Part shown: positions 1-23,277 of the stretch, in pieces
Layout: every line of letters begins with the position of its first letter
Position numbering within the stretch: position 1 is the stretch's first letter
Source: a virus
Strand: one strand, 5' to 3'
Length of the DNA stretch: 26,316 bases
IMG/VR virus record: IMGVR_UViG_3300025437_000054
Location: 1-26,316 of that record
The notes under the pieces: generated by a model
What the model saw: the letters and a program-made list of their open reading frames with translations, nothing else
What the model was told of the DNA's origin: nothing
Databases searched by the model: none
Program-made: the position numbers and the translations under genes

Positions 1-1197
1 GTCGAGGCACAGAGACCTTTTTATGAACATGACCCCAAGCTCTGGGTCGTTTGGCACCAAGAATATGGCTTGCCCAACCTCCAATATCTCTCGGGTATTT
101 ATCCTAACGTCGCAATACCCAATGACGAGATAGAGGCTCTTACGAACCTCTCAGCCATTACTAGAGCCTACGAGAGACAGTACGGCACCAAGTACCATGC
201 TCTTGGATGTGCCAAGCCCGACAACCTGCGACAGGTACCATTTACGACTGCCAGCACATTGTCATGGCTATCGCCCATGAGACGAGGCGAGACTATCGTG
301 TGGGATGGACAGCGAATCGTCCGCTATCCCAAGAAGATGAAAGACCAAGCTCGCATTCGCTACAAGGCTGTAGTGGAGAAGGCTGGCTTGGATTTTGATA
401 AGTTCAAGCAGGATGACACGCTGGAAGCGACTAAGGTTGCAGTCTGGTCATACAAGAAACTAGAGGAATCTATGGATAAGAAGAGCCCCAACTTTCACAT
501 TATCGATGGTGGTAAGGGTGACAAGGCTGAGAAAGTAACTGACAACAGCGATGACCTGTATACGGGGCTAATGATGGAATTAGGGGGGGTACCTTCTGAT
601 AACAGTGAGCTTGAGACACGGAAAGTTTCGCCCACTGAGGTAGTCCAAAGAAACCCTGATGAGATGCAAAACCTCCCAGTTTTCGGCTTCAAGATGAAGA
701 CGATTGTCGAAACAGACGATAGTGGAAAAGACGTTCTCAAGGATGTGCCAGTCGTTCAGACTCAGCAGTCATCGCTTCGCCAATGCAACACCTGCTTCGT
801 TGCCAGCAATTGCCCAGCGTTCAAGCCCGACAATATGTGTGCGTTTAACCTGCCAGTCGAGGTCAAAACCAAAGACCAACTCAAGGCTTTGATGACCGCA
901 ATGATTGAAATGCAGGGTCAAAGAGTGGCTTTTATGCGATTTGCTGAAGAAATGAACGGTGGCTATGCTGACCCTAATGTTTCTCAGGAAATTGACAGGC
1001 TCTTTAAGCTCGTCGCTAATCTCAAAGAATTGGAAGAGAACCGTGAGTTCGTTCGCATTACAGCAGAGCGCCAGTCATCAGGAGGAGTGCTCTCAGCCAT
1101 CTTCGGAGACAGAGCTCAGGCGCTTCGTGAGCTTCCAGAAGCTCTCAAAGAGGAGAGCGTCACTCGAATCATCAGTCAAAACCTCGAAGACAAGTAA
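1..1197 (+). CDS. Unknown protein with four-Cys cluster (5' partial)
   Basis: The frame is open from the first base of the window, so the true start lies upstream; 398 codons are visible before a TAA. I do not recognise the family. A cysteine cluster C-x2-C-x5-C-x8-C encoded at 784-840 looks like a zinc- or iron-sulfur-binding site, and the last 120 residues are charged and probably helical. A TTG at 70 could be read as a start, but the frame continues upstream without a stop, so I treat the gene as truncated by the window edge. It is followed 24 bases later by endonuclease VII, which suggests a DNA-metabolism or structural neighbourhood but does not define a function. Confidence 0.8.
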   Translation, partial: VEAQRPFYEHDPKLWVVWHQEYGLPNLQYLSGIYPNVAIPNDEIEALTNLSAITRAYERQYGTKYHALGCAKPDNLRQVPFTTASTLSWLSPMRRGETIVWDGQRIVRYPKKMKDQARIRYKAVVEKAGLDFDKFKQDDTLEATKVAVWSYKKLEESMDKKSPNFHIIDGGKGDKAEKVTDNSDDLYTGLMMELGGVPSDNSELETRKVSPTEVVQRNPDEMQNLPVFGFKMKTIVETDDSGKDVLKDVPVVQTQQSSLRQCNTCFVASNCPAFKPDNMCAFNLPVEVKTKDQLKALMTAMIEMQGQRVAFMRFAEEMNGGYADPNVSQEIDRLFKLVANLKELEENREFVRITAERQSSGGVLSAIFGDRAQALRELPEALKEESVTRIISQNLEDK

Positions 1198-7883: not shown

Positions 7884-8185
7884 GCCTTGTCTCCTAACCA
7901 TAGTGTGTTATCGGAATCAGAACGCAGAACACGACCGCCTTCACCAGCGCCGTATTCTTCTAGTTGTTCAGTGATGTGGTCATTGATGTACTCCTGACTT
8001 CCCTCAATGAAGTCACTGATACTTTCGACAATCTCTTTCCATACAATCTCACCAGCTTTCGGGTCTCCGATTAGATGGTGGTCAAGTACGTCACCGACTG
8101 AATAGACGGTGTATGCAATCGGTTCTGTTGGTTCGTAGTTCTTCTGCAGATTCTCAATGAGTTCTGCAACGGTTGTGTGGCTCAT
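7880..8185 (-). CDS. Hypothetical acidic protein (101 aa)
   Basis: An acidic protein starting MSHTTVAELIENLQKNYEP; the opening resembles many small phage proteins that begin with a helix such as TVAELIEnL, but I cannot assign a family with certainty. It contains no membrane segment or cysteine. Both ends overlap neighbours as ATGA, so it is translationally coupled upstream and downstream. Confidence 0.75.
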   Translation of the reverse strand: MSHTTVAELIENLQKNYEPTEPIAYTVYSVGDVLDHHLIGDPKAGEIVWKEIVESISDFIEGSQEYINDHITEQLEEYGAGEGGRVLRSDSDNTLWLGDKA

Positions 8186-8364
8186 GGAAGTAACTCCGTT
8201 TCATGGCGCTGTGGTTGGGTGGGTAGTTTGTCAATCATCTTGGAGCACGAGCCATAGCCGTTGCCAACCCAGCAGACGTCACGTGTCCAATAGCTAATGA
8301 GAAGTGTTGCAATGATGGCTGGGATGATGACGAGCACCACCCAACCTCGAGTTGTTAGCTTCAT
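8182..8364 (-). CDS. Small single-span membrane protein
   Basis: The 60-residue protein has one hydrophobic segment (about 8-25, WVVLVIIPAIIATLLISYW) after a short basic N-terminus, then a polar tail with two Cys residues. Function unknown. It overlaps both neighbours by ATGA. A membrane-associated accessory protein is likely. Confidence 0.7.
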   Translation of the reverse strand: MKLTTRGWVVLVIIPAIIATLLISYWTRDVCWVGNGYGSCSKMIDKLPTQPQRHETELLP

Positions 8365-8978
8365 GCGACCATGTCCTTTGCTTCCAATACCGCTTCGACC
8401 AATCGTTGCAAGGTCTTGATGTCAATCTCCATCGTTGCCGTAACGAGCTCTTGGTTATTGACAGTCCTGCTTCGAGTGTAGGTCTCGACGTACTGTGGTT
8501 GCTTATTGGTAATCGTTGCAATGGTTTGCGTCAATGTATCTTTGACACGAACCTTGAGTGCGTCAGCTTCGTCATACTTGCGTTGACGCTCGGCACGTGC
8601 TTGTGCCTCCTTTGCGTCCTTCGCTTCACGAATGGCGTCCTCTTCTGCCCAGCGCTTTGAGATTAAGTCCCACTCGCCCACAATGTCTTGAGTACGAGAT
8701 AGCCAGTACAGGTCAGAGCCATCGTTGTTCACTCCATGAGCACGCATGAGGTAACCGATAGAACGGTCGCTCGATTCTGCTGGTATGAAGTTTGAGTCCT
8801 GCGGATTCGCTGACTTCCATACGGTGTACTTGTATCGAGCCATGGATACGAGCTCGACCTTGTACACGAATGTGCCACGTTCGACTTTGAATGGGTCTCT
8901 TTGGTCTGCGCTTTTACTACGTCCCCATGGTGCAAGAGCGACGTAGTACTTGCCTGCTTGAAGGTTCTGTGCTTTCAC
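8361..8978 (-). CDS. Hypothetical protein with central charged helix
   Basis: The 205-residue protein has a beta-looking N-terminal part (about 1-105, with many aromatic residues), a strongly charged Ala/Glu/Arg helix (about 108-145) and a mixed C-terminal region. No family is recognised. The start is GTG, chosen because AAAGGAG lies directly before it at correct spacing. It is the first gene of the leftward chain after the hairpin at 9010-9041. Confidence 0.75.
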   Translation of the reverse strand: MKAQNLQAGKYYVALAPWGRSKSADQRDPFKVERGTFVYKVELVSMARYKYTVWKSANPQDSNFIPAESSDRSIGYLMRAHGVNNDGSDLYWLSRTQDIVGEWDLISKRWAEEDAIREAKDAKEAQARAERQRKYDEADALKVRVKDTLTQTIATITNKQPQYVETYTRSRTVNNQELVTATMEIDIKTLQRLVEAVLEAKDMVA

Positions 8979-9061: not shown

Positions 9062-11005
9062 TTATGCATTCGTGAGTTGGCGAGCAATCGCTGTCTTCAC
9101 GAGGTTGCGAGCGAGACCGACAAGGTCAGACGGATTAGTAATGACCTGCCCAATCTCACAGCCGTAGAGCGCCTCCTTACGCAACGTGCCCTGACGTTGC
9201 GTGATGTACGCCAGTGATGTGAGAACACCAGCTCGCTTCATGCGAGTAATGGCTTCTCGGTGTGCCCGCTCTTCACCGCTCCATACGCCATCAGTGATAG
9301 CAATCAGAAGCTTGGTGGGCTTATCAGACTCTGCGAAGACTCGAGTGGCATAAGCAATTGCGTCAGTTGGTTCGGTGCCTCCACCTGTACCAGCGTCACG
9401 AATCAATGTGCCTGCCTTCTCATGCTTTGAGTACAGCGTCTGTGCATAGCTTGAGAATGTCAACACTGTAGTGCTGGCATTGATACGGTCGAGTGCTCGC
9501 TTGATGGCATACATGGAGCGATATGCCTGCGTTGCAGGTACACCGCCCATCGAGCCACTGGTGTCAAGCATGATGACGCATTCGATATCGGTTGCGTCAG
9601 TGCGTCCCTGATTCCATTGGTCATAAATAGAATCGTGGTCATCACCACGCATTGCACGCTTTGCATTGAGCTTGCCACTGGACAAGTGCCTATCCCAAGC
9701 TGGGTCAACACTGGCACGCAATCGCTCGAGCTCACGTCCGAATGAACGAGCAACACCAGCTGACGTGCTGTCTGCTGGTTGCTCTTTGTATCGGGCAATC
9801 TCGGGCTCTTGTGCACCGTTGCTTGATAGTGATGGCAAGCCACTGACCTGACGAAGTACATTGTCAATCTCTTTAATGACCTCCTCGTTATTGAGAAGTT
9901 CATCAATGATGTTGTTTAGCAATGTCTCGGTCTTGTCAGCTTCTGCATTGCCAGCAGACTGACCATTGGATGATTCGCCATCATCTGATTCCTCTTCATC
10001 ATCGACGTCATCTGAATCATCAACGTCATCGATATCTGAATCATCATCTGATTCTTCTGATGACTCTTCGTCATCTGAATTATCTGAATCATCTGAATCA
10101 CTGAAGTCAAGCGTGATATCAATATCAATATCAATGTCATCTTCATCATTGATATCTTCGTCATTACCAGCGTCAGGAGCATTGTCACGTGCTCGCTCCT
10201 GTTGCTTCTGATTCAGTGGACGTGATGTGCTTGAGTCAACGCCTTCGTGTGGTCGCTCACCATGACCGAATGGGTCTTTGATAGTAATGCGAACACGCTT
10301 GCCCTGACCCTCGCCCTGACCTTGCTCTTGGTCTTGGTCTTGACCTTGTGAATCGTTGCCACCTAACAGCTTGTGGAAGCGAGCAATGAGGTCTTCTGCG
10401 ACTTCGTAATCACGTGGAAAGACAAGGTCACGATAGGAATCAACGACGTCGCATAGTTCGGCAATGTCATCTTGATTCTTGTATGCCTTGCGAGACTCGG
10501 CACGCAATTCAGCTGGCAGATATCTGCGACCACGTAGCAAGAGATACGACGTGTCGAATGACTTTGAGTTCTCAATCAAGTGCAATGAGACTGTTGCTGT
10601 TAGCCACTTTGCAATCGATGGATACTTACCAGTGAGCAATCGTTCTAGTCTGCAATCTTCAAGTGCATTGAATGCTGACCAGTATCCGTTGTCCACGACG
10701 TAATCAACGAGACGTGAACCATGACGTGGTGTGAAGAGCACGTGCCCAATCTCATGGAAGTCGAGACCGTAGATAGCGAGAAGGTCTCGCTCGGTCTTCA
10801 GCTCGCCAATCAATCGAGAGTTGAATACGACTTCATTCGCATTGGAATATGCAGGCGCATTCAACTCTGAGTTCTCAACTCGCACTTTGATAGGACGAAG
10901 TGCGAGTACACCGTTGACACGTCCGAAGACCTGACAGAAGCGCTCTAGGCGTTGGCGATGGCGCTCCTGTAGGTCTTGCTGGAAGGTATCGATGAATGAG
11001 GTCAT
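9062..11005 (-). CDS. VWA-domain protein, CobT-like, with HExxH motif
   Basis: The 647-residue protein probably works with the AAA+ ATPase encoded directly upstream, as CobT does with CobS in aerobic cobaltochelatase or VWA proteins do with MoxR ATPases. The N-terminal domain holds HEIGH (84-88) and a downstream Glu (E116 in NALEDCRLER), resembling a zinc metallopeptidase-like fold. A very acidic Asp/Ser/Glu linker spans about 279-345. The C-terminal von Willebrand A domain has the metal-binding DTSGS (481-485), T544 in GGTEPTDA and D572 in TDG. Length and acidic centre resemble CobT; HExxH points to the putative metallopeptidase/VWA family. The ATG overlaps the ATPase stop (ATGA). Confidence 0.85.
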   Translation of the reverse strand: MTSFIDTFQQDLQERHRQRLERFCQVFGRVNGVLALRPIKVRVENSELNAPAYSNANEVVFNSRLIGELKTERDLLAIYGLDFHEIGHVLFTPRHGSRLVDYVVDNGYWSAFNALEDCRLERLLTGKYPSIAKWLTATVSLHLIENSKSFDTSYLLLRGRRYLPAELRAESRKAYKNQDDIAELCDVVDSYRDLVFPRDYEVAEDLIARFHKLLGGNDSQGQDQDQEQGQGEGQGKRVRITIKDPFGHGERPHEGVDSSTSRPLNQKQQERARDNAPDAGNDEDINDEDDIDIDIDITLDFSDSDDSDNSDDEESSEESDDDSDIDDVDDSDDVDDEEESDDGESSNGQSAGNAEADKTETLLNNIIDELLNNEEVIKEIDNVLRQVSGLPSLSSNGAQEPEIARYKEQPADSTSAGVARSFGRELERLRASVDPAWDRHLSSGKLNAKRAMRGDDHDSIYDQWNQGRTDATDIECVIMLDTSGSMGGVPATQAYRSMYAIKRALDRINASTTVLTFSSYAQTLYSKHEKAGTLIRDAGTGGGTEPTDAIAYATRVFAESDKPTKLLIAITDGVWSGEERAHREAITRMKRAGVLTSLAYITQRQGTLRKEALYGCEIGQVITNPSDLVGLARNLVKTAIARQLTNA

Positions 11006-12387
11006 ACGGTCTCCGTAACGTCGACGTCAATGGATTCGAATTGCAGACCAAGGTCTGACTTCAAGTTGGTCTCGAGTGACTCGAGAAGTATCTTCACTGC
11101 ACCACGTTCTTCGGGTTCGAAGTTATTGATGAAGTTGTAGACAGCGAAGTCGTAGCTCAATCCCTTTGCAACCTTCTCGAATGTCTTGAGCAATCGAGTT
11201 GATATCGGGGTCTCGAATACGATTCCGTTATCGCTTGTAGGCACTGCTGAGTCCATGCCACGAGATGTCTTTCGCATATCACGAGCAAGGTCAATCAGTG
11301 TTGACGATGTAAGAATTCGCTTCTCAATTGCACTGTCGTACTCGTATGCAATCTTCAATTCGAATCGGTCTTTGAGTGCCTCGTTGAGCAACGAAGTTCC
11401 TCGGTAACTTGGATTCATGTCAGCGACAATCAGCAAGTCAGGATGTGCATGAATGACTTCGTTGCCGTTGTCCATCAATGTGATGGAGCGACGATAGTCG
11501 AGCAACGAGAAGAGCACCGTCATGATACGAGCTGGTGCGAATGACAACTCGTTGAGCAACAGCACACCGCCATTGCGTACCACTTCAGTGAGACCACCGT
11601 CGACCCACTTGAATGTGCCGTCAGGTTGTGGACGGTCACTGCCGAATATCTGCGATGGCTCGAGTGCGATATTGCCAGCAAGTGAGTAGAACGAGAGACC
11701 ACGCTCTTTGGCGAAGTTCATGACCGACGATGTCTTACCAGTACCAGCCTCACCGAAGAGAAGCACGTTGAGGTTGTTCTGCAATGCGAAGTCGAACCAC
11801 TGGTGTTCTTTGACACCAGCAATCGTTCGCTCGATGTAATTGCTGACGTGCTCTGCTGTTGGTACGAATGAGATTCGCTTCTCACCGTTATTGACAGTGA
11901 CCACTGGCGCAACGTTGCTTGTAACAGGCGCTGGTGGCTGATAAGCGACCTCGATGACCGAGTTCAGTGTTTGTGTTGCCATGGATTTTTTCCCTCTGTT
12001 ATCGATGTAGTAGGTCTTGAGTGCGGATGGGTCAACTTGTGCAATGTCCTCGATGTATCGAACGAGTGCGTCGATATCTTCGGTGACAACTGTTTGCTCT
12101 TGCAATGAATGCTGACGAATCAACTTCTGAAAGAGAACACGTGGCAATGGACTGTTCTCGATTTCGTCGATGTCATTGATGGTCAATGGTGTTGAGATAA
12201 CTTTGCCAATCAACTGTTCGTTGCTGGCGTTGATATCGAATGCACCAGTGACCCACGCATTCTGTTTGCCTTGTTTGCCATTGGTGAATCGCCACCACTT
12301 ATGGACAACGCCATTGCAATTCGCAATGACGGTTTGACGTACAACGGTGTCCCCATGAGTTTGCGAGACGATTAATGCTCCGTACAT
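11002..12387 (-). CDS. MoxR/CobS-like AAA+ ATPase
   Basis: The 461-residue protein has an unrecognised N-terminal region (about 1-170) and a AAA_5-type ATPase core: Walker A GEAGTGKT (212-219), Walker B VLLLNEL (275-281), a sensor asparagine near N325 in ADMNPSYRG, and NEALKDRF (335-342). Walker B has Asn in place of the usual first Asp, while the catalytic Glu is kept. MoxR/CobS proteins form rings that use ATP to remodel a partner bound by a VWA protein; the partner gene follows with an ATGA overlap. An AGGAGGG ribosome site precedes the ATG. Whether it serves cobalt chelation or a viral assembly step cannot be decided from sequence. Confidence 0.88.
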   Translation of the reverse strand: MYGALIVSQTHGDTVVRQTVIANCNGVVHKWWRFTNGKQGKQNAWVTGAFDINASNEQLIGKVISTPLTINDIDEIENSPLPRVLFQKLIRQHSLQEQTVVTEDIDALVRYIEDIAQVDPSALKTYYIDNRGKKSMATQTLNSVIEVAYQPPAPVTSNVAPVVTVNNGEKRISFVPTAEHVSNYIERTIAGVKEHQWFDFALQNNLNVLLFGEAGTGKTSSVMNFAKERGLSFYSLAGNIALEPSQIFGSDRPQPDGTFKWVDGGLTEVVRNGGVLLLNELSFAPARIMTVLFSLLDYRRSITLMDNGNEVIHAHPDLLIVADMNPSYRGTSLLNEALKDRFELKIAYEYDSAIEKRILTSSTLIDLARDMRKTSRGMDSAVPTSDNGIVFETPISTRLLKTFEKVAKGLSYDFAVYNFINNFEPEERGAVKILLESLETNLKSDLGLQFESIDVDVTETV

Positions 12388-16533: not shown

Positions 16534-16570
16534 GCCCAAAAATTAGGGGTCATGCCCTGATAATGTGTGC

Positions 16571-17284
16571 ATGGCAGATAAAGGTTTAGAGGGTAGGGTT
16601 TTTCAGATACCCCTCGACATCCACAACAATTACGACTACGACCATCGGTCAGTCGGAGACCATGACCATTTTGTTTTTCGCCATGGCAAAGAGTCTATTG
16701 CCATTTCTCTTGCTCACCCACATCATGAAGAACCAGTCGAAACTCAAGAGTCTAAGTGGACTGATAATGCCGAAATGCGGTATCACCCAGAAGCAGACAG
16801 ATATTCCTACCAACATACTATGTGGGATAAACCGCATGGACGCTCTACGCCACCCAAGATTGACAAGTTGTTTGCCACTGAAGGCGCACGGGCGCACGTA
16901 GCCACAGCACTAGGCGCAGTCATTCACCACTCATTAAAGAAATTTGGCGAGGTACCTCATCCCGATAGAGACCTCTCTCCTCATAGTCATGCTTTGGTGA
17001 GTCGTCTCATGGGCGCATTGAAAGATAAGGGCGCTGATGTATCGTCAGTACATGTACCTTCTATGCCTCACAACAGTATTACTAAGACAGAAGGAACAGA
17101 AACAGCCAAAACTCGTGCAGATGAAGTGTTTAACTCTCCTGAAGATAGTTGGTACAGCAGAAACTACACAGAAGTGCCACACGAGCATATAAAAGCAGGT
17201 AGTCAACTGATGCGCCAAGTATTTGCAGGTCGTCATCTAAGCAGGAAGCAATTTGAACAACCAGAGTTGACGTTCCATGAGTAA
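16571..17284 (+). CDS. Hypothetical His-rich protein with C-terminal LSxxQF tag
   Basis: The 237-residue protein is rich in His and Asp and resembles nothing I know. It ends in HLSRKQFEQPELTFHE, which contains the LSxxQF motif found at the N-terminus of most following proteins, and the piece NQPELTF recurs at the start of the protein at 18109. The ATG at 16571 is preferred; a GTG two codons upstream is possible. The stop lies 8 bases inside the next gene, so translation is probably coupled. Its position at the head of the tagged cassette suggests it belongs to the same functional set. Confidence 0.75.
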   Translation: MADKGLEGRVFQIPLDIHNNYDYDHRSVGDHDHFVFRHGKESIAISLAHPHHEEPVETQESKWTDNAEMRYHPEADRYSYQHTMWDKPHGRSTPPKIDKLFATEGARAHVATALGAVIHHSLKKFGEVPHPDRDLSPHSHALVSRLMGALKDKGADVSSVHVPSMPHNSITKTEGTETAKTRADEVFNSPEDSWYSRNYTEVPHEHIKAGSQLMRQVFAGRHLSRKQFEQPELTFHE

Positions 17285-17825
17285 CTTAAACCCCAACCAA
17301 TTTAAGTCGCACATGGAGTGGTCTGCAAAAGATTTTGCTGACGTATTCAAGCCTAGTGAATATGGAACTAACATTGAGCGCTCTAGCGGTAAGGGTCACG
17401 TTGAGGGAGATGAGTCAAACTCCGTAACCAAGATGGTGCCTATCTCTGTTGTTAAGCGGTATAGAGAATATGACCGTGAAGGACAGCAATCTCACGGGTC
17501 CATGAGCGAAGAAACCATAAACAACATCGCCAATGAGTTAAAAAATGGCGGAGTTATTAAGACGCCATTATCTATCTACCATTCTGACGCCCATAACTGG
17601 GGATACCTTGCAGAAGGTCACCATAGGCTAATCGCCGCCGAACGTGCTGGGTTAACTCACGTTCCTGTATACGTTGGCTCAGTAGAACATGGCGTAGGAG
17701 AAGAATCACGTAAAGAAAAGGGCATAGGTGCTCCTCTTCACCTCACCACAAACTTTAGTTCTATCCCAGGGCAGAAATACATTCCGCCTAAAGTTCATCC
17801 CAACCATTTTGCGGAGTTGCGATGA
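17277..17825 (+). CDS. ParB-like protein with N-terminal LNxxQF tag
   Basis: The 182-residue protein begins MSNLNPNQF, the cassette tag. Residues about 53-135 form a ParB/Srx-like core: MVPISVVKRY, then SEETINNIANEL, KTPLSIYH and AEGHHRLIAAERAG (GHHRL at 114-118), ending HVPVYVG. It lacks the HTH of partition ParB proteins. A comparable GHHRL core occurs at 14716 and 19089. ParB-like cores can hydrolyse CTP or act as nucleases or kinases in other families; the activity here is unknown. It overlaps the next gene by ATGA. Confidence 0.82.
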   Translation: MSNLNPNQFKSHMEWSAKDFADVFKPSEYGTNIERSSGKGHVEGDESNSVTKMVPISVVKRYREYDREGQQSHGSMSEETINNIANELKNGGVIKTPLSIYHSDAHNWGYLAEGHHRLIAAERAGLTHVPVYVGSVEHGVGEESRKEKGIGAPLHLTTNFSSIPGQKYIPPKVHPNHFAELR

Positions 17826-18112
17826 GTAATCTCTCACCTCGTCAATTCAAAGACTACACACTCAAGTTTGAACGCTATGTCGGAGATAAAGTCATAACTG
17901 CCCATCACAAAGGTGAACAAATTGGCGCATTGACATGGGACCCAGGTGACGGAACAATACTCGGAGTGGGCGTAACACCTGAACATCGCCGCAAAGGAAT
18001 AGCAACAGCGATGTGGGATATGGCGCATACAGTGCCAGGAACCAAACCCGTGCACAATCCCAAGCATTCGGAAGATGCCGCACACTGGATAAAGCATTTG
18101 GAGAGTAGATGA
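17822..18112 (+). CDS. Short GNAT acetyltransferase-like protein with LSxxQF tag
   Basis: The 96-residue protein begins MSNLSPRQF. It then has ILGVGVTPEHRRKGIATAMW (46-65), the GNAT acetyl-CoA-binding motif A (V-x-P-x-x-R-x-x-G-I-A), followed by a helix and a short C-terminal part. GNAT domains are usually 140 or more residues, so this is a reduced version without an evident N-terminal beta layer. It may acetylate a protein or small molecule. Both ends overlap neighbours by ATGA. Confidence 0.8.
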   Translation: MSNLSPRQFKDYTLKFERYVGDKVITAHHKGEQIGALTWDPGDGTILGVGVTPEHRRKGIATAMWDMAHTVPGTKPVHNPKHSEDAAHWIKHLESR

Positions 18113-18546
18113 GCGCTGAAGATAATCTCTCAGAAGCACAGTGGAATCAACCAGAGTTGACATTTCCTGTTCATAGAGGGCTAAATAAAGTCGGTATTGG
18201 TCAAGTACGAACAGGACTTGGCACACATTGGAGCGCAGATAAAGACATGGCTACATTATTTGCGGCTAAACCTGATGTCTTAAATGACAATCCTCGTCTT
18301 AAGTCATATAAGCCAAGCACCGTCATACATGCTGAAATTCCTATGAGCAGTGTGGAAACACATGCTCCTACATTAAAGAAGCGTGGAGTTGATATGGTGG
18401 AGTACGCTGGAGAAAAAGAAGTGCCCGCTAAAAAAGGCTCTCCTATCACAGTCACTGGTATGACCCGAATAACATGGCCTTCTGCTCCCTTCCGTAACAG
18501 AGAGAGAAAGCGCACCTACAATCCACCACGGGAGATGAAGGCATGA
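18109..18546 (+). CDS. ADP-ribosyltransferase-like protein with LSxxQW tag
   Basis: The 145-residue protein opens with MSAEDNLSEAQWNQPELTF, a variant of the cassette tag, then follows the R-S-E layout of arginine-type ADP-ribosyltransferases: R23 in VHRGL, GTHWSAD (38-44) with S42, and GEKEV (101-105), which contains the ExE pair E102/E104. SPITVTGM after ExE resembles the usual beta-strand. The fold assignment is from motifs only. T4 Alt is a head-packaged ART of this broad class. It overlaps both neighbours by ATGA. It may modify a host protein early in infection if delivered, or act in the cell if simply expressed. Confidence 0.68.
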   Translation: MSAEDNLSEAQWNQPELTFPVHRGLNKVGIGQVRTGLGTHWSADKDMATLFAAKPDVLNDNPRLKSYKPSTVIHAEIPMSSVETHAPTLKKRGVDMVEYAGEKEVPAKKGSPITVTGMTRITWPSAPFRNRERKRTYNPPREMKA

Positions 18547-18857
18547 GCAACCTCAACCCTAAGCAGTTTTATCATGGGTCTCCTATCAATCTTCCAGAAG
18601 GAACCGTTTTAACTCCAGGCTCTTCTCGTGGAGTCAATAACCATCCTCCAGCAGGAGACAACTCCAAAGTGTGGATGGCTCATACTCCTTGGGATGCAAG
18701 TCGGTGGGGCAATACTGCGGCCCTTAATAGTCGTCGCAGGAATGTCCATGTATACGAGGTAGAGCCATTAGAAGACCACGTAGATATGGGGCATGAATCA
18801 ACGGCTTCTTTAGCACGGATTGTTCGTAAGTTAAATACCAACAAGGCAAAACGATAA
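18543..18857 (+). CDS. Rifampin-ADP-ribosyltransferase (Arr)-like protein with LNxxQF tag
   Basis: The 104-residue protein starts MSNLNPKQF and continues immediately into FYHGSPINLPEGTVLTPG (9-26), which matches the Arr opening (YHGT..DL..GD.LTPG). VWMAHTPWDASRWG (43-56) and VHVYEVEPLEDH (68-79) correspond to the Arr pieces 'YFTATLDAAIWG' and 'YVVEP'. His11 should be the first catalytic residue; the usual Tyr appears to be Trp44. Arr proteins modify rifampin, but relatives occur in many contexts and the substrate here is unknown. It is shorter than the usual 140 residues. ATGA overlap upstream. Confidence 0.75.
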   Translation: MSNLNPKQFYHGSPINLPEGTVLTPGSSRGVNNHPPAGDNSKVWMAHTPWDASRWGNTAALNSRRRNVHVYEVEPLEDHVDMGHESTASLARIVRKLNTNKAKR

Positions 18858-18858
18858 A

Positions 18859-19086
18859 ATGAGCGCTGAAGATAATCTTCAACCAAGGCAGTTTAAGTGG
18901 ACGCCACATAAATTTGACCTCCGTGTTGGCGACCATTTACTAAAAGAACACGGGCGGTACAAAGAGGGTGGATGGTCACGGACCTATATTGATGAGAGAA
19001 GTCATGCCGCAGAGCATGATGCAGACCCAGAAGGCATTGCTGGCACCATTCCACACAAGCATTTCACACCAAAAAACAGGAGATAG
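18859..19086 (+). CDS. Hypothetical protein with LQxxQF tag
   Basis: The 75-residue protein starts MSAEDNLQPRQF, and its first 20 coding bases are identical to those of the ART-like gene at 18109, so the 5' end was probably copied. The rest (KFDLRVGDHLLKEHG, then His-rich) is unrecognised. It follows the Arr-like gene with one base between stop and start, and its stop precedes the next ATG by 2 bases. Confidence 0.68.
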   Translation: MSAEDNLQPRQFKWTPHKFDLRVGDHLLKEHGRYKEGGWSRTYIDERSHAAEHDADPEGIAGTIPHKHFTPKNRR

Positions 19087-19088
19087 TG

Positions 19089-19367
19089 ATGATTAGCGAG
19101 CAACAATTTGGAAATCACATGTCTTCTAGCGAAATTTTGGCGCATGTGCAGCTCGGTGCAGGCAAAAATCTGGAAAAAGCATCAGAAGAAGCGTATGCAA
19201 GTGGTCTTGGTGGCGACATTAAGAAGAATTGGGTGCAAAAACCTCTTACAATTTGGCATAGAGACGGAAAAATGCACTTAGCAGACGGTCATCACCGCTT
19301 AGCAGTGGCTCATGGCATCGATAAAGACCGCAAAATTCCTGTTCAGCATCAATTTCCCAACTTTTAA
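19089..19367 (+). CDS. Minimal ParB-like protein with ISxxQF tag
   Basis: The 92-residue protein begins MISEQQF, a cassette-tag variant. VQKPLTIWHRDGKMHLADGHHRLAVAHGID (49-78 region) is the ParB/Srx-like core with GHHRL at 67-71, here reduced to little more than the core. I prefer the ATG at 19089, with AGGAG 7 bases upstream; the GTG at 19086 is an alternative. The stop is 9 bases before the endolysin ATG. It is the third GHHRL protein in the window. Confidence 0.78.
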   Translation: MISEQQFGNHMSSSEILAHVQLGAGKNLEKASEEAYASGLGGDIKKNWVQKPLTIWHRDGKMHLADGHHRLAVAHGIDKDRKIPVQHQFPNF

Positions 19368-19376
19368 GGAGAAAAA

Positions 19377-20171
19377 ATGGCAACAAAGCCAGTTCCACCC
19401 GTTACTGATAAGCCACAAGGCACTGCAGCACGCTTTTTAGAGGTTGCATTGTCTCAAGTGGGCGTTATTGAAGGTCCAAAGGACAACGAAACCGATTTTG
19501 GCGCATTTACAGGCGCAAATTTCCAACCATGGTGCGGTTCTTTCATGATGTGGTGCGCTCATCAAGCTGGCGTGACCATTCCTAACACTGTCTACACGCC
19601 AAATGGCGCCGCTGCATTTAAGAAGGCTGGCACATGGGCAGATGCGGCAAATGCACATCCACAGCCAGGTGACTTGATTTACTTCTCATTTGTTCCAAAT
19701 GCAACACCAACATCACCTATCCAACACGTGGGCGTTGTCTTGAAGGATAACGGCGATGGCACCATCACCACTGTTGAGGGCAATACATCACCAGACTTGA
19801 AGCCAAAGGGCTCACCCAACAATGGTGGCGAAGTTGCATCGAACGTTCGTGGCTATAAAGCAAACAACTCACGCCATCTCTGGTCAACAGTTGTGGGTTT
19901 TGGTCGCCCTAACTATGTTGGAGCAACTACCAGTGCCCACCCAGCCACACCCACCCCTAAGACCATCCCACCGTTCCCAGGAACCATCCAACCAGGAGAC
20001 TCAGGTCCTAACGTGGCGGCTATCCAAACAGCCCTCCATTTGGACGCTGACGGCTCCTACGGCCCTCTGACCAAGAAGGCTGTCATGGCTGTACAGACCC
20101 AATCTGATGCTTTGGACTCCAATGGCATCGTTGGACCTAAGACTTGGGCAGAAATCTTCCAAAACGCCTAA
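19377..20171 (+). CDS. CHAP endolysin with peptidoglycan-binding domain
   Basis: This 264-residue protein should hydrolyse peptidoglycan at the end of infection. The CHAP amidase/endopeptidase domain shows the nucleophile C53 in PWCGSFMMWC, H117 in PIQHVGVVL and E134 in TTVEGN. A Thr/Pro linker (about 182-200) leads to a PG_binding_1 domain (about 204-262, GDSGPNVAAIQTAL ... SYGPLTKKAV ... GIVGPKTWAEI). No signal peptide is seen, so it probably depends on a holin; a holin-like gene lies 1.5 kb downstream. An AAGGAG site is directly upstream. Codon use looks more GC-rich towards the C-terminus. Confidence 0.92.
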   Translation: MATKPVPPVTDKPQGTAARFLEVALSQVGVIEGPKDNETDFGAFTGANFQPWCGSFMMWCAHQAGVTIPNTVYTPNGAAAFKKAGTWADAANAHPQPGDLIYFSFVPNATPTSPIQHVGVVLKDNGDGTITTVEGNTSPDLKPKGSPNNGGEVASNVRGYKANNSRHLWSTVVGFGRPNYVGATTSAHPATPTPKTIPPFPGTIQPGDSGPNVAAIQTALHLDADGSYGPLTKKAVMAVQTQSDALDSNGIVGPKTWAEIFQNA

Positions 20172-20191
20172 TTCGGGCATATTGCCCCTAA

Positions 20192-20231
20192 GAACCCTCC
20201 ACGGATACCTGATGGTATTCTTGGGGGGTTC
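20192..20231 (+). terminator. Long hairpin between endolysin and protease genes
   Basis: GAACCCTCC (20192-20200) pairs with GGGGGGTTC (20223-20231) including one G-U pair, and GGATACC (20203-20209) pairs with GGTATTC (20214-20220) around loop TGAT. No T-tract follows. It could be an attenuator or an RNA-processing site that separates expression of the two genes. Confidence 0.5.
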
Positions 20232-20248
20232 CTTATTAGGGGGTAGAG

Positions 20249-20809
20249 ATGACAACCATCGTGGGAGTCCAGTACAAAGATAAAGCGGTCATTGTTGCTG
20301 ATAACCAAGTAACAGACTTCTCGACAAGTTCCATGCGTCGCATGAACCATCCAGATATGAAGAAGATTGCTCAACGTGGCGCCTTCCTTATTTCGGGTAG
20401 TGGTGAAGTGATGCCATGCGATGTTGCACAGCGCATGTGGAATCCGCCCAAGCCCAACATTGCGGATAAAAAAGACCTGATGAACTTTGTCATCACCAAA
20501 GCGATGCCGTCATTGCGAAAGTGTTTGACCGATAACGGCTATGACTTTAATGAGAGCAAAAGCAATAGCAAGGATGATGGTGAGCAGCGCTTTCATTTCC
20601 TTATGGTTGTTGGTGGAGAGCTTTTTGATATTGCCGATGATTTGTCGGTTTGTCGAACAGATGATGGCTTTTATGCCATAGGCTCTGGTGGAGACCTAGC
20701 TTTGGGCGCTATGGCGGCTGGAGCATCTCCTGAAAAGGCTGTTGAGATTGCTTGTCGCTTTAGTATCTACTCATCAGGACCACTACAAAAGATGGAGCAA
20801 CATAAGTGA
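20249..20809 (+). CDS. HslV/proteasome-like Ntn protease
   Basis: The 186-residue protein matches the HslV/20S-beta fold: TTIVGV directly after the initiator Met, providing the catalytic N-terminal Thr2 once Met is removed; ADNQVTD (17-23) in the D17 position; MKKI (37-40) with the Lys33-equivalent lysine; LISGSGEV (48-54); and YAIGSGGDLALGAMAAG (142-158), the GSGG loop with catalytic Ser. The C-terminal helix AVEIACRFSIYSSGP closes the fold. No HslU partner is encoded in view, so substrates may be recognised without ATP or via a host ATPase. It overlaps the next gene as GTGA. Confidence 0.88.
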   Translation: MTTIVGVQYKDKAVIVADNQVTDFSTSSMRRMNHPDMKKIAQRGAFLISGSGEVMPCDVAQRMWNPPKPNIADKKDLMNFVITKAMPSLRKCLTDNGYDFNESKSNSKDDGEQRFHFLMVVGGELFDIADDLSVCRTDDGFYAIGSGGDLALGAMAAGASPEKAVEIACRFSIYSSGPLQKMEQHK

Positions 20810-21123
20810 CAGATGACGTCATGTATAAGTCCAAGCGCCAACAAAAAGTTGAGCTGGGAAAAATGGAGCAACAAGCTTTTCTTTTAGAAAAAGCTAAAGA
20901 AAAGCACATTAAGAGATGGGAAGAATCCCAAGTTCAGGCTGCAACATGGCAGTCTGTCCTCGACTACGCAGTGGAACAATACACGGCACACAAGGAAGAG
21001 TTAGACGAAGACGTGATTACTAAAACAGAAGAAATGATTCAAGAACGTCAAAAAGAAATCAAGGAATTTTTAATGACGGAAAAAGACTTGTATTTAGAGG
21101 CCATGGGAATCCAGGCTGACTGA
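20806..21123 (+). CDS. Coiled-coil hypothetical protein
   Basis: A 105-residue, almost entirely helical, charged protein with Glu/Lys/Gln heptad-like spacing; no domain is recognised. The likely start is GTG, overlapping the protease stop (GTGA); an ATG five codons later is possible. Its position next to the protease might reflect an adaptor or scaffold role, which is only a guess. Confidence 0.7.
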   Translation: MTDDVMYKSKRQQKVELGKMEQQAFLLEKAKEKHIKRWEESQVQAATWQSVLDYAVEQYTAHKEELDEDVITKTEEMIQERQKEIKEFLMTEKDLYLEAMGIQAD

Positions 21124-22792: not shown

Positions 22793-22961
22793 CGGGCAAG
22801 ACCCAACACCGTTAACAACAACACGGTATTACTATTCACACGACCATCCATCTAGTCGATTGTCTGCAATTCAGTTTGACCATGTAAGCAATGGAATGTA
22901 TGGCGGACCATTTGGAGATTACGGTCATTACAACCAAGGAAACTTTAATGAGCAATCTTAG
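22755..22961 (+). CDS. Small protein with internal LSxxQF motif
   Basis: The 68-residue frame overlaps the preceding gene by 38 bases and the next by 14. It contains RLSAIQFDHVSNG near its middle, an internal copy of the cassette tag, followed by Gly/Tyr-rich sequence. AGGCGGTGA just before the ATG could act as ribosome site. The overlap lowers certainty, but the tag match supports it. Confidence 0.6.
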   Translation: MTQKASSTVPVRNGQDPTPLTTTRYYYSHDHPSSRLSAIQFDHVSNGMYGGPFGDYGHYNQGNFNEQS

Positions 22962-23277
22962 TAACACACAGTTTGAGCATGCGGCAGATATCGAAGAGAA
23001 GCAACGCCGCAGATTCCGTCGCAAGCACGAATCAGGATATTCAGGTGCTGGCTTTTGGTACAGCAACTATCCATACATGACGGGTGCAATGGGCACTGGT
23101 GGTATGGCAACAGAAAACCATCCAGAACCAGATAACGAGGGACAAGAGACTGCATCCGAACACGGGGCAGAAGCTATGGGCGCTGCAACTAACGGTGTGA
23201 CAGATACAGCAATGCCAGCTCCAACTAGTGATGGCGGCGGCATTGGCGGCACGATGACTTCAGCGGTGGCGATGTAA
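22948..23277 (+). CDS. Hypothetical protein with LSxxQF tag and Gly/Ala-rich tail
   Basis: The 109-residue protein starts MSNLSNTQFEHAADIEEK, the standard cassette tag, then a highly basic patch (EKQRRRFRRKH), a Gly/Tyr-rich stretch and a Gly/Ala/Thr-rich end. I chose the ATG at 22948 with AAGGAAAC upstream, which places the tag exactly at the N-terminus as in the other proteins. Its TAA overlaps the next ATG. Function unknown; a structural or packaged protein is plausible. Confidence 0.75.
   Translation: MSNLSNTQFEHAADIEEKQRRRFRRKHESGYSGAGFWYSNYPYMTGAMGTGGMATENHPEPDNEGQETASEHGAEAMGAATNGVTDTAMPAPTSDGGGIGGTMTSAVAM

Follow-up and report, generated by a model that had tools for sequence, protein, structure and literature searches.

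A phage-encoded threonine protease of the proteasome superfamily and its gene contexts in freshwater phages

What use does a phage make of a protease of the proteasome superfamily, and does such an enzyme work with an ATP-driven unfoldase? The question is raised by an open reading frame directly behind the endolysin gene of a viral DNA, at positions 20249–20809 (plus strand) of the window, by which we mean the whole stretch of DNA analyzed here, a complete IMG/VR record of 26,316 bases. The genome may be larger, in which case the window is a fragment. The frame starts with ATG and encodes a propeptide-free protein of 186 residues (P0001), an N-terminal threonine protease of the proteasome superfamily. 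A preliminary description of this DNA had reported the frame at these coordinates, and it proved to be widely conserved.

Family, catalytic residues and predicted fold

P0001 matched the Pfam Proteasome family (PF00227) over residues 2–27 with 23.6 bits (cut-off 22.4), and PHROG 1040, annotated as 'peptidase HslV family', over residues 1–184 (E 2e-29). A first scan of IMG/VR viral contigs showed conservation over the full length of the protein in 51 loci, and a wider profile scan returned 569 candidate stretches with a relative, 80 of which were kept. Between pairs of close relatives the NG86 dN/dS was approximately 0.06–0.11, and the gene is therefore under purifying selection. The closest cultured relatives are found in the Planktophila phages E7 and F5 (OX376640 and OX376641; 40% and 38% identity, respectively). 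As these phages belong to 'Ca. Planktophila', the actinobacterial host assumed in the preliminary description is plausible, and further relatives occur in phages of Microbacterium and Arthrobacter. With the family member of phage DSL-LC01 as a query, bacterial homologues were retrieved from Rhizobium, Sinorhizobium, Mesorhizobium, Paraburkholderia and Streptomyces plasmids. Two strict-pattern scans of genome contigs gave no confirmed relatives of P0001; plasmid records nonetheless hold these bacterial homologues. One 4.5-kb contig (L048) carries two differing copies of the protease in opposite orientation (positions 661–1209 and 2264–2812), which may represent a true duplication or an assembly chimera.

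Residue conservation was scored over 129 aligned relatives, with some near-duplicates retained. The codons and motifs given below lie on the plus strand, like the gene itself. Thr2 (20252–20254), which corresponds to the catalytic Thr1 after removal of the methionine, is invariant (129/129), and the same holds for Asp18 (20300–20302, Asp17 of the proteasome triad), for Lys39 (20363–20365, by alignment Lys33 of the triad) and for Gly52 (20402–20404), by alignment with proteasome Gly47 the probable oxyanion-hole glycine. The case for an active protease had initially been built on a TTIVGV start, a KK pair at residues 38–39 and a GSGG loop. Whereas the threonine of the start withstood the comparison in every relative, the KK pair is present but constant only in its second lysine, Lys38 being variable (76/129). 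The GSGG loop is likewise present (residues 145–148) and reduces to a GSG motif in the alignment (residues 145–147, 20681–20689), in which Gly145 and Gly147 are invariant where aligned and Ser146 is mostly S or T; the fourth glycine is not conserved. The threonine, aspartate and lysine are kept in the distant phage homologues of DSL-LC01, Pumpernickel, D'Alembert and phiTY18 as well as in bacterial ones, with the threonine conserved throughout.

The AlphaFold monomer model of P0001 has a pLDDT of 86. Its best match in Foldseek was BPH (E 1e-11, TM 0.65), and VIA-align superposed the two with a Z-score of 18.7 and 2.5 Å over 162 residues; the archaeal 20S beta subunit and HslV ranked just after BPH in the structure comparison. 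BPH was also the top solved structure for the sequence profile of P0001 (match to 5ovu, E 2.6e-7). Helix H2 is clear in the model (residues 77–95). The charged linker of 19 residues that connects it to the next strand (residues 96–114, 20534–20590, plus strand) is modeled with low confidence, with low pLDDT at residues 102–111, and is a candidate pore loop. Structural modeling thus predicts P0001 to have the proteasome fold of an Ntn hydrolase with all catalytic residues intact, in keeping with the earlier proposal of an active N-terminal threonine protease. Both findings that had been named as grounds for abandoning that proposal were looked for: a replacement of Thr2 was seen in none of the 129 relatives, and the predicted fold is that of the proteasome rather than another one. 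The Met-Thr start and the absence of a propeptide predict an N-terminal threonine once the methionine is removed.

Placement among proteasome homologues

The preliminary description had called the protein HslV/proteasome-like. Its membership in the proteasome superfamily stands, but it is not HslV proper: against the HslV equivalog TIGR03692 (NCBIfam) P0001 scored 24.1 bits, with a cut-off of 157.75, and the name HslV is therefore unsuited. Fold, Thr/Asp/Lys triad and GSG motif are common to both proteins, whereas P0001 differs in its longer pore loop and in that no HslU was found. A bacterial 20S beta subunit was considered and rejected, as TIGR03690 is absent among the matches of P0001 and a propeptide is lacking.

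The closest solved fold is that of BPH (5ovs, 5ovt, 5ovu; PMC5777263), which forms a tetradecameric double ring with an elongated acidic pore loop and has no partner unfoldase. The loop has considerable length and is disordered in part, whereas HslV has a short linker in its place (PMC5777263). P0001 resembles BPH in Thr1, in the long pore loop and in the absence of an unfoldase partner, but the two are only ~20–24% identical, and P0001 is encoded by a phage in a late-gene context. As BPH was inactive on the model substrates tried (PMC5777263), free-running peptide hydrolysis by P0001 should not be assumed.

Phage proteasome homologues without an ATPase are already known, and the novelty of the present locus lies in its gene context. 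A BPH has been annotated in Citromicrobium phage RXM, with the suggestion of an ATPase partner (PMC8953757), and the report by Fuchs et al. (2021) describes AAH and PPH as phage-borne homologues without ATPase, and states that co-occurring AAA+ proteins were not found for the new homologues. With AAH as described there, P0001 shares a compact group I fold with helices H1–H4, the lack of a propeptide, an occurrence in phages and the lack of an AAA+ partner. Homologues of P0001 were found in alpha-proteobacteria, actinobacteria and phages, and the bacterial ones (on rhizobial, Streptomyces and also Paraburkholderia plasmids) come near the distribution that defines AAH in that report. The likeness is one of description and distribution, which makes P0001 a candidate AAH. 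According to the same text AAH is absent from actinobacteria-specific phages; relatives in phages of Planktophila, Microbacterium and Arthrobacter, and the portal and endolysin slots described below, are features seen here. PPH, also phage-borne, is given in that text as a protein of ~140 residues without H2, which rules out this identity for P0001 with its 186 residues and clear H2. In our preferred reading, given below, P0001 belongs to the BPH/AAH branch and not to HslV proper.

Gene context and the head-protease question

The endolysin gene (19377–20171, plus strand, PHROG matches) lies directly upstream of the protease and is adjacent to it in 69 of 84 loci. Directly downstream, with a start that overlaps the protease stop, lies a gene for a 105-aa two-helix coiled-coil protein (20806–21123, plus strand), adjacent in 64 of 85 loci; both counts stem from the window's lineage, in which contigs are not independent and many are near-duplicates. 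The 105-aa protein is a candidate partner of P0001. It is modeled as a two-helix hairpin and often ends in GIQAD, which by eye is not HbYX-like, and its identity with a known proteasome activator was rejected on these grounds.

Between endolysin and protease we identified an RNA hairpin (20186–20241, plus strand; MFE -36.8 kcal/mol, z -3.9) that pairs part of the Shine-Dalgarno stretch of the protease. It may be a terminator-like element or a translational control element. A shorter two-helix form has been conserved across 26 relatives and covaries in part; because these sequences are related and slid controls were not far off, we grade the hairpin as conserved but uncertain in role. The hairpin also contains the sequence TGnTAnnnT, invariant in the 26 relatives, that resembles an extended -10 promoter element.

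The run of genes before the endolysin (16565–19367), and a second stretch at 22891–23277, encode several otherwise different proteins with the motif [LI]xxxQ[FW] (LNPKQF, LSPRQF, LQPRQF and others), located near the N-terminus and in one protein near the C-terminus. By eye, the carriers include ParB-like, GNAT-like and ADP-ribosyltransferase-like proteins, and the motif might serve as a signal for packaging or ejection. Variants (LNPNQF, LSANQF) occur on proteins of a 98-kb relative, contig L006. At the other end of the window (70–1197) lies a queuine tRNA-ribosyltransferase-like gene (phrog_887), possibly involved in DNA or tRNA base modification. The position of the protease after the tagged cassette and the endolysin was correctly described before, and from this proximity it had been proposed that the protease might process the tagged proteins whose genes precede it. 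We consider this very improbable: phage E7 has the protease, but a scan for the motif did not detect the tag in its proteins, and a conserved cleavage signature was not found.

The order endolysin-protease is that of ~100-kb phages like the window's, and a second slot, behind the portal gene, is used in ~39-kb phages including E7 and F5. Among E7-type matches (related contigs and E7 itself) the portal gene lies directly upstream of the protease in 80 of 83, with a gap of typically 13–18 nt in E7 and its relatives, and the gene order of E7 reads terL-portal-protease-...-scaffold-major capsid protein. On contig L006 the protease is encoded on the same strand as terL, portal, scaffold-like and capsid genes, ~10 kb upstream of them, and its capsid belongs to the same family as that of E7 (phrog_1357). 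In the protease tree the two contexts interleave, its supported branches requiring three changes between them, and the L073 protease occupies the portal slot, yet is 61% identical to P0001 in the multiple alignment. Copies of the protease therefore appear to have moved between the slots, and this movement suggests one common function for the endolysin-slot and portal-slot copies. The protease genes of DSL-LC01, Pumpernickel, Hum25 and D'Alembert are placed apart from the head genes and have small or metabolic genes around them. In portal-slot phages the protease is followed by genes for an 84-aa and a 147-aa protein (L056, positions 8033–8727); relatives of the latter persist where the protease is absent, and a 73–79-aa protein fills the slot in most protease-free phages.

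In other phages, head proteases of the S78/S77 type carry out the trimming in virion morphogenesis and usually occupy a slot beside the portal, although their fold differs from that of P0001. The portal slot of the E7-type relatives is shared with these enzymes, and P0001 might likewise be a morphogenesis protease, contained in the virion or active at the procapsid stage, that trims scaffold, portal tail or capsid proteins. Apart from the portal adjacency, several observations favor such a role. An S78 head protease was not found in E7, in six ~40-kb relatives or in long contigs of the window's lineage, and Pfam scans of the open reading frames of E7 and L006 detected no other head-protease family. 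The capsid family common to L006 and E7, and the movement of protease sequences between the endolysin and portal slots, point in the same direction.

One would expect a head protease in all phages that build the head concerned, and this is not what we found. To count its presence in an unselected manner, the E7 portal was used as a query and loci with downstream sequence were evaluated; the protease was present in 66 of the 76 loci and missing in 10, where no replacement protease was recognised. Two long protease-free contigs of 39.9 and 37.5 kb, which may be incomplete, gave no match to PHROG 1040 at any position and none to S78, but their capsid and scaffold proteins closely resemble the ones encoded by relatives with the protease. 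Unlike the S78/S77 enzymes, the P0001 family is thus absent from some close relatives with a similar capsid. When portal C-termini from 70 loci grouped as protease-bearing (4 of which end at the portal and may or may not carry the gene) were compared with those from 10 loci without it, some columns differed, but a clear difference in a cleavage site or motif was not seen. Moreover, the window's lineage has the protease with the endolysin, away from the head genes rather than beside the portal, and D'Alembert encodes a member of the P0001 family in addition to an annotated head maturation protease elsewhere. The case for an essential head protease is thereby weakened. As the enzyme is apparently not required for the head, we regard a role in morphogenesis as unlikely, also in the form of an exchangeable and dispensable module in which a compartmental proteasome-type protease would serve virion assembly by unfoldase-free scaffold removal or trimming. 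The maturation of structural proteins that had been suggested for this gene therefore finds backing in the portal adjacency, but is weakened by the phages that keep a similar capsid and scaffold without it.

ATPase partners and mode of action

HslU/ClpX-type AAA_2 domains (PF07724) above the cut-off were absent from 11 records (nine contigs including the window, and the complete genomes of DSL-LC01 and Pumpernickel), and none was present among the Pfam-scanned open reading frames of E7. This bears out the earlier observation that no HslU-type unfoldase lies nearby. The accompanying phrase 'without a visible ATPase' is too strong, because the window holds a MoxR/CobS-like AAA+ ATPase (11002–12387, minus strand; PF07728, 5.5e-22; phrog_249, 6.9e-40), adjoined by a VWA/CobT-like protein identified by profile matches (9062–11005, minus strand). 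In a PADLOC search the ATPase of this locus (9062–12387) gave a weak match to IetA (E 1.6e-4).

P0001 could be a peptidase driven by this ATPase and its VWA/CobT-like partner, both of which are encoded inside the window. The MoxR-like ATPase was found in 11 of the 12 records searched of the window's lineage and also in DSL-LC01 and Pumpernickel, and this near-constancy leaves room for an ATP-dependent mode. However, the same ATPase family was matched in 14 of 14 control genomes, and co-occurrence with the protease is therefore weak evidence. The ATPase gene lies 8 kb from the protease on the opposite strand, and, to our knowledge, MoxR-type ATPases are not known as proteolytic unfoldases. Moreover, E7 and D'Alembert have the protease but not this ATPase, so that an obligate partnership is ruled out and the ATPase can be an optional partner at most. 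We consider a MoxR-driven peptidase quite improbable.

The protease might instead act on or with host proteolysis, by using a host AAA+ protein (Clp or a proteasomal ATPase) or by removing host or defence proteins. Its location away from the head genes in DSL-LC01, Pumpernickel, Hum25 and D'Alembert would agree with this. In contrast, the window and its close relatives group the protease with late genes, and P0001 itself was without a match in the PADLOC search; such a role appears improbable to us.

Our preferred reading, to which we assign a probability of roughly 0.5, is that P0001 is a late, accessory, ATP-independent and probably ring-forming compartmental threonine peptidase, as far as can be judged from the model and the gene contexts. 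Thr2 would become the N-terminal nucleophile once the methionine is removed, and the subunits may form a double ring like that of BPH, in which the active sites would be shut inside and a long, charged loop would lie at the pore. Short or unfolded polypeptides would enter this ring without ATP. The enzyme probably acts late in infection, because its gene sits among late genes (the lysis cassette in the window, the portal in smaller relatives); the upstream hairpin could uncouple its expression from that of the endolysin, and 'late' is therefore to be read as a statement about gene order. Since the gene is missing from some close relatives, we regard the enzyme as accessory and not as essential. 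Our leading guess is that the peptidase disposes of peptides and of late proteins in an unfolded state, for instance scaffold or misassembled virion proteins, with amino-acid recycling as a possible added role.

The P0001 family is common in freshwater phages, with hundreds of IMG/VR loci, and its cultured carriers E7 and F5 infect an abundant, newly culturable lake bacterium. If the assignment to AAH is right, AAH carriers would exist among actinobacterial phages, where the 2021 survey did not find them. The carriers with the protease in the portal slot, together with their natural protease-free relatives, offer a practical setting for testing what a phage proteasome homologue does.
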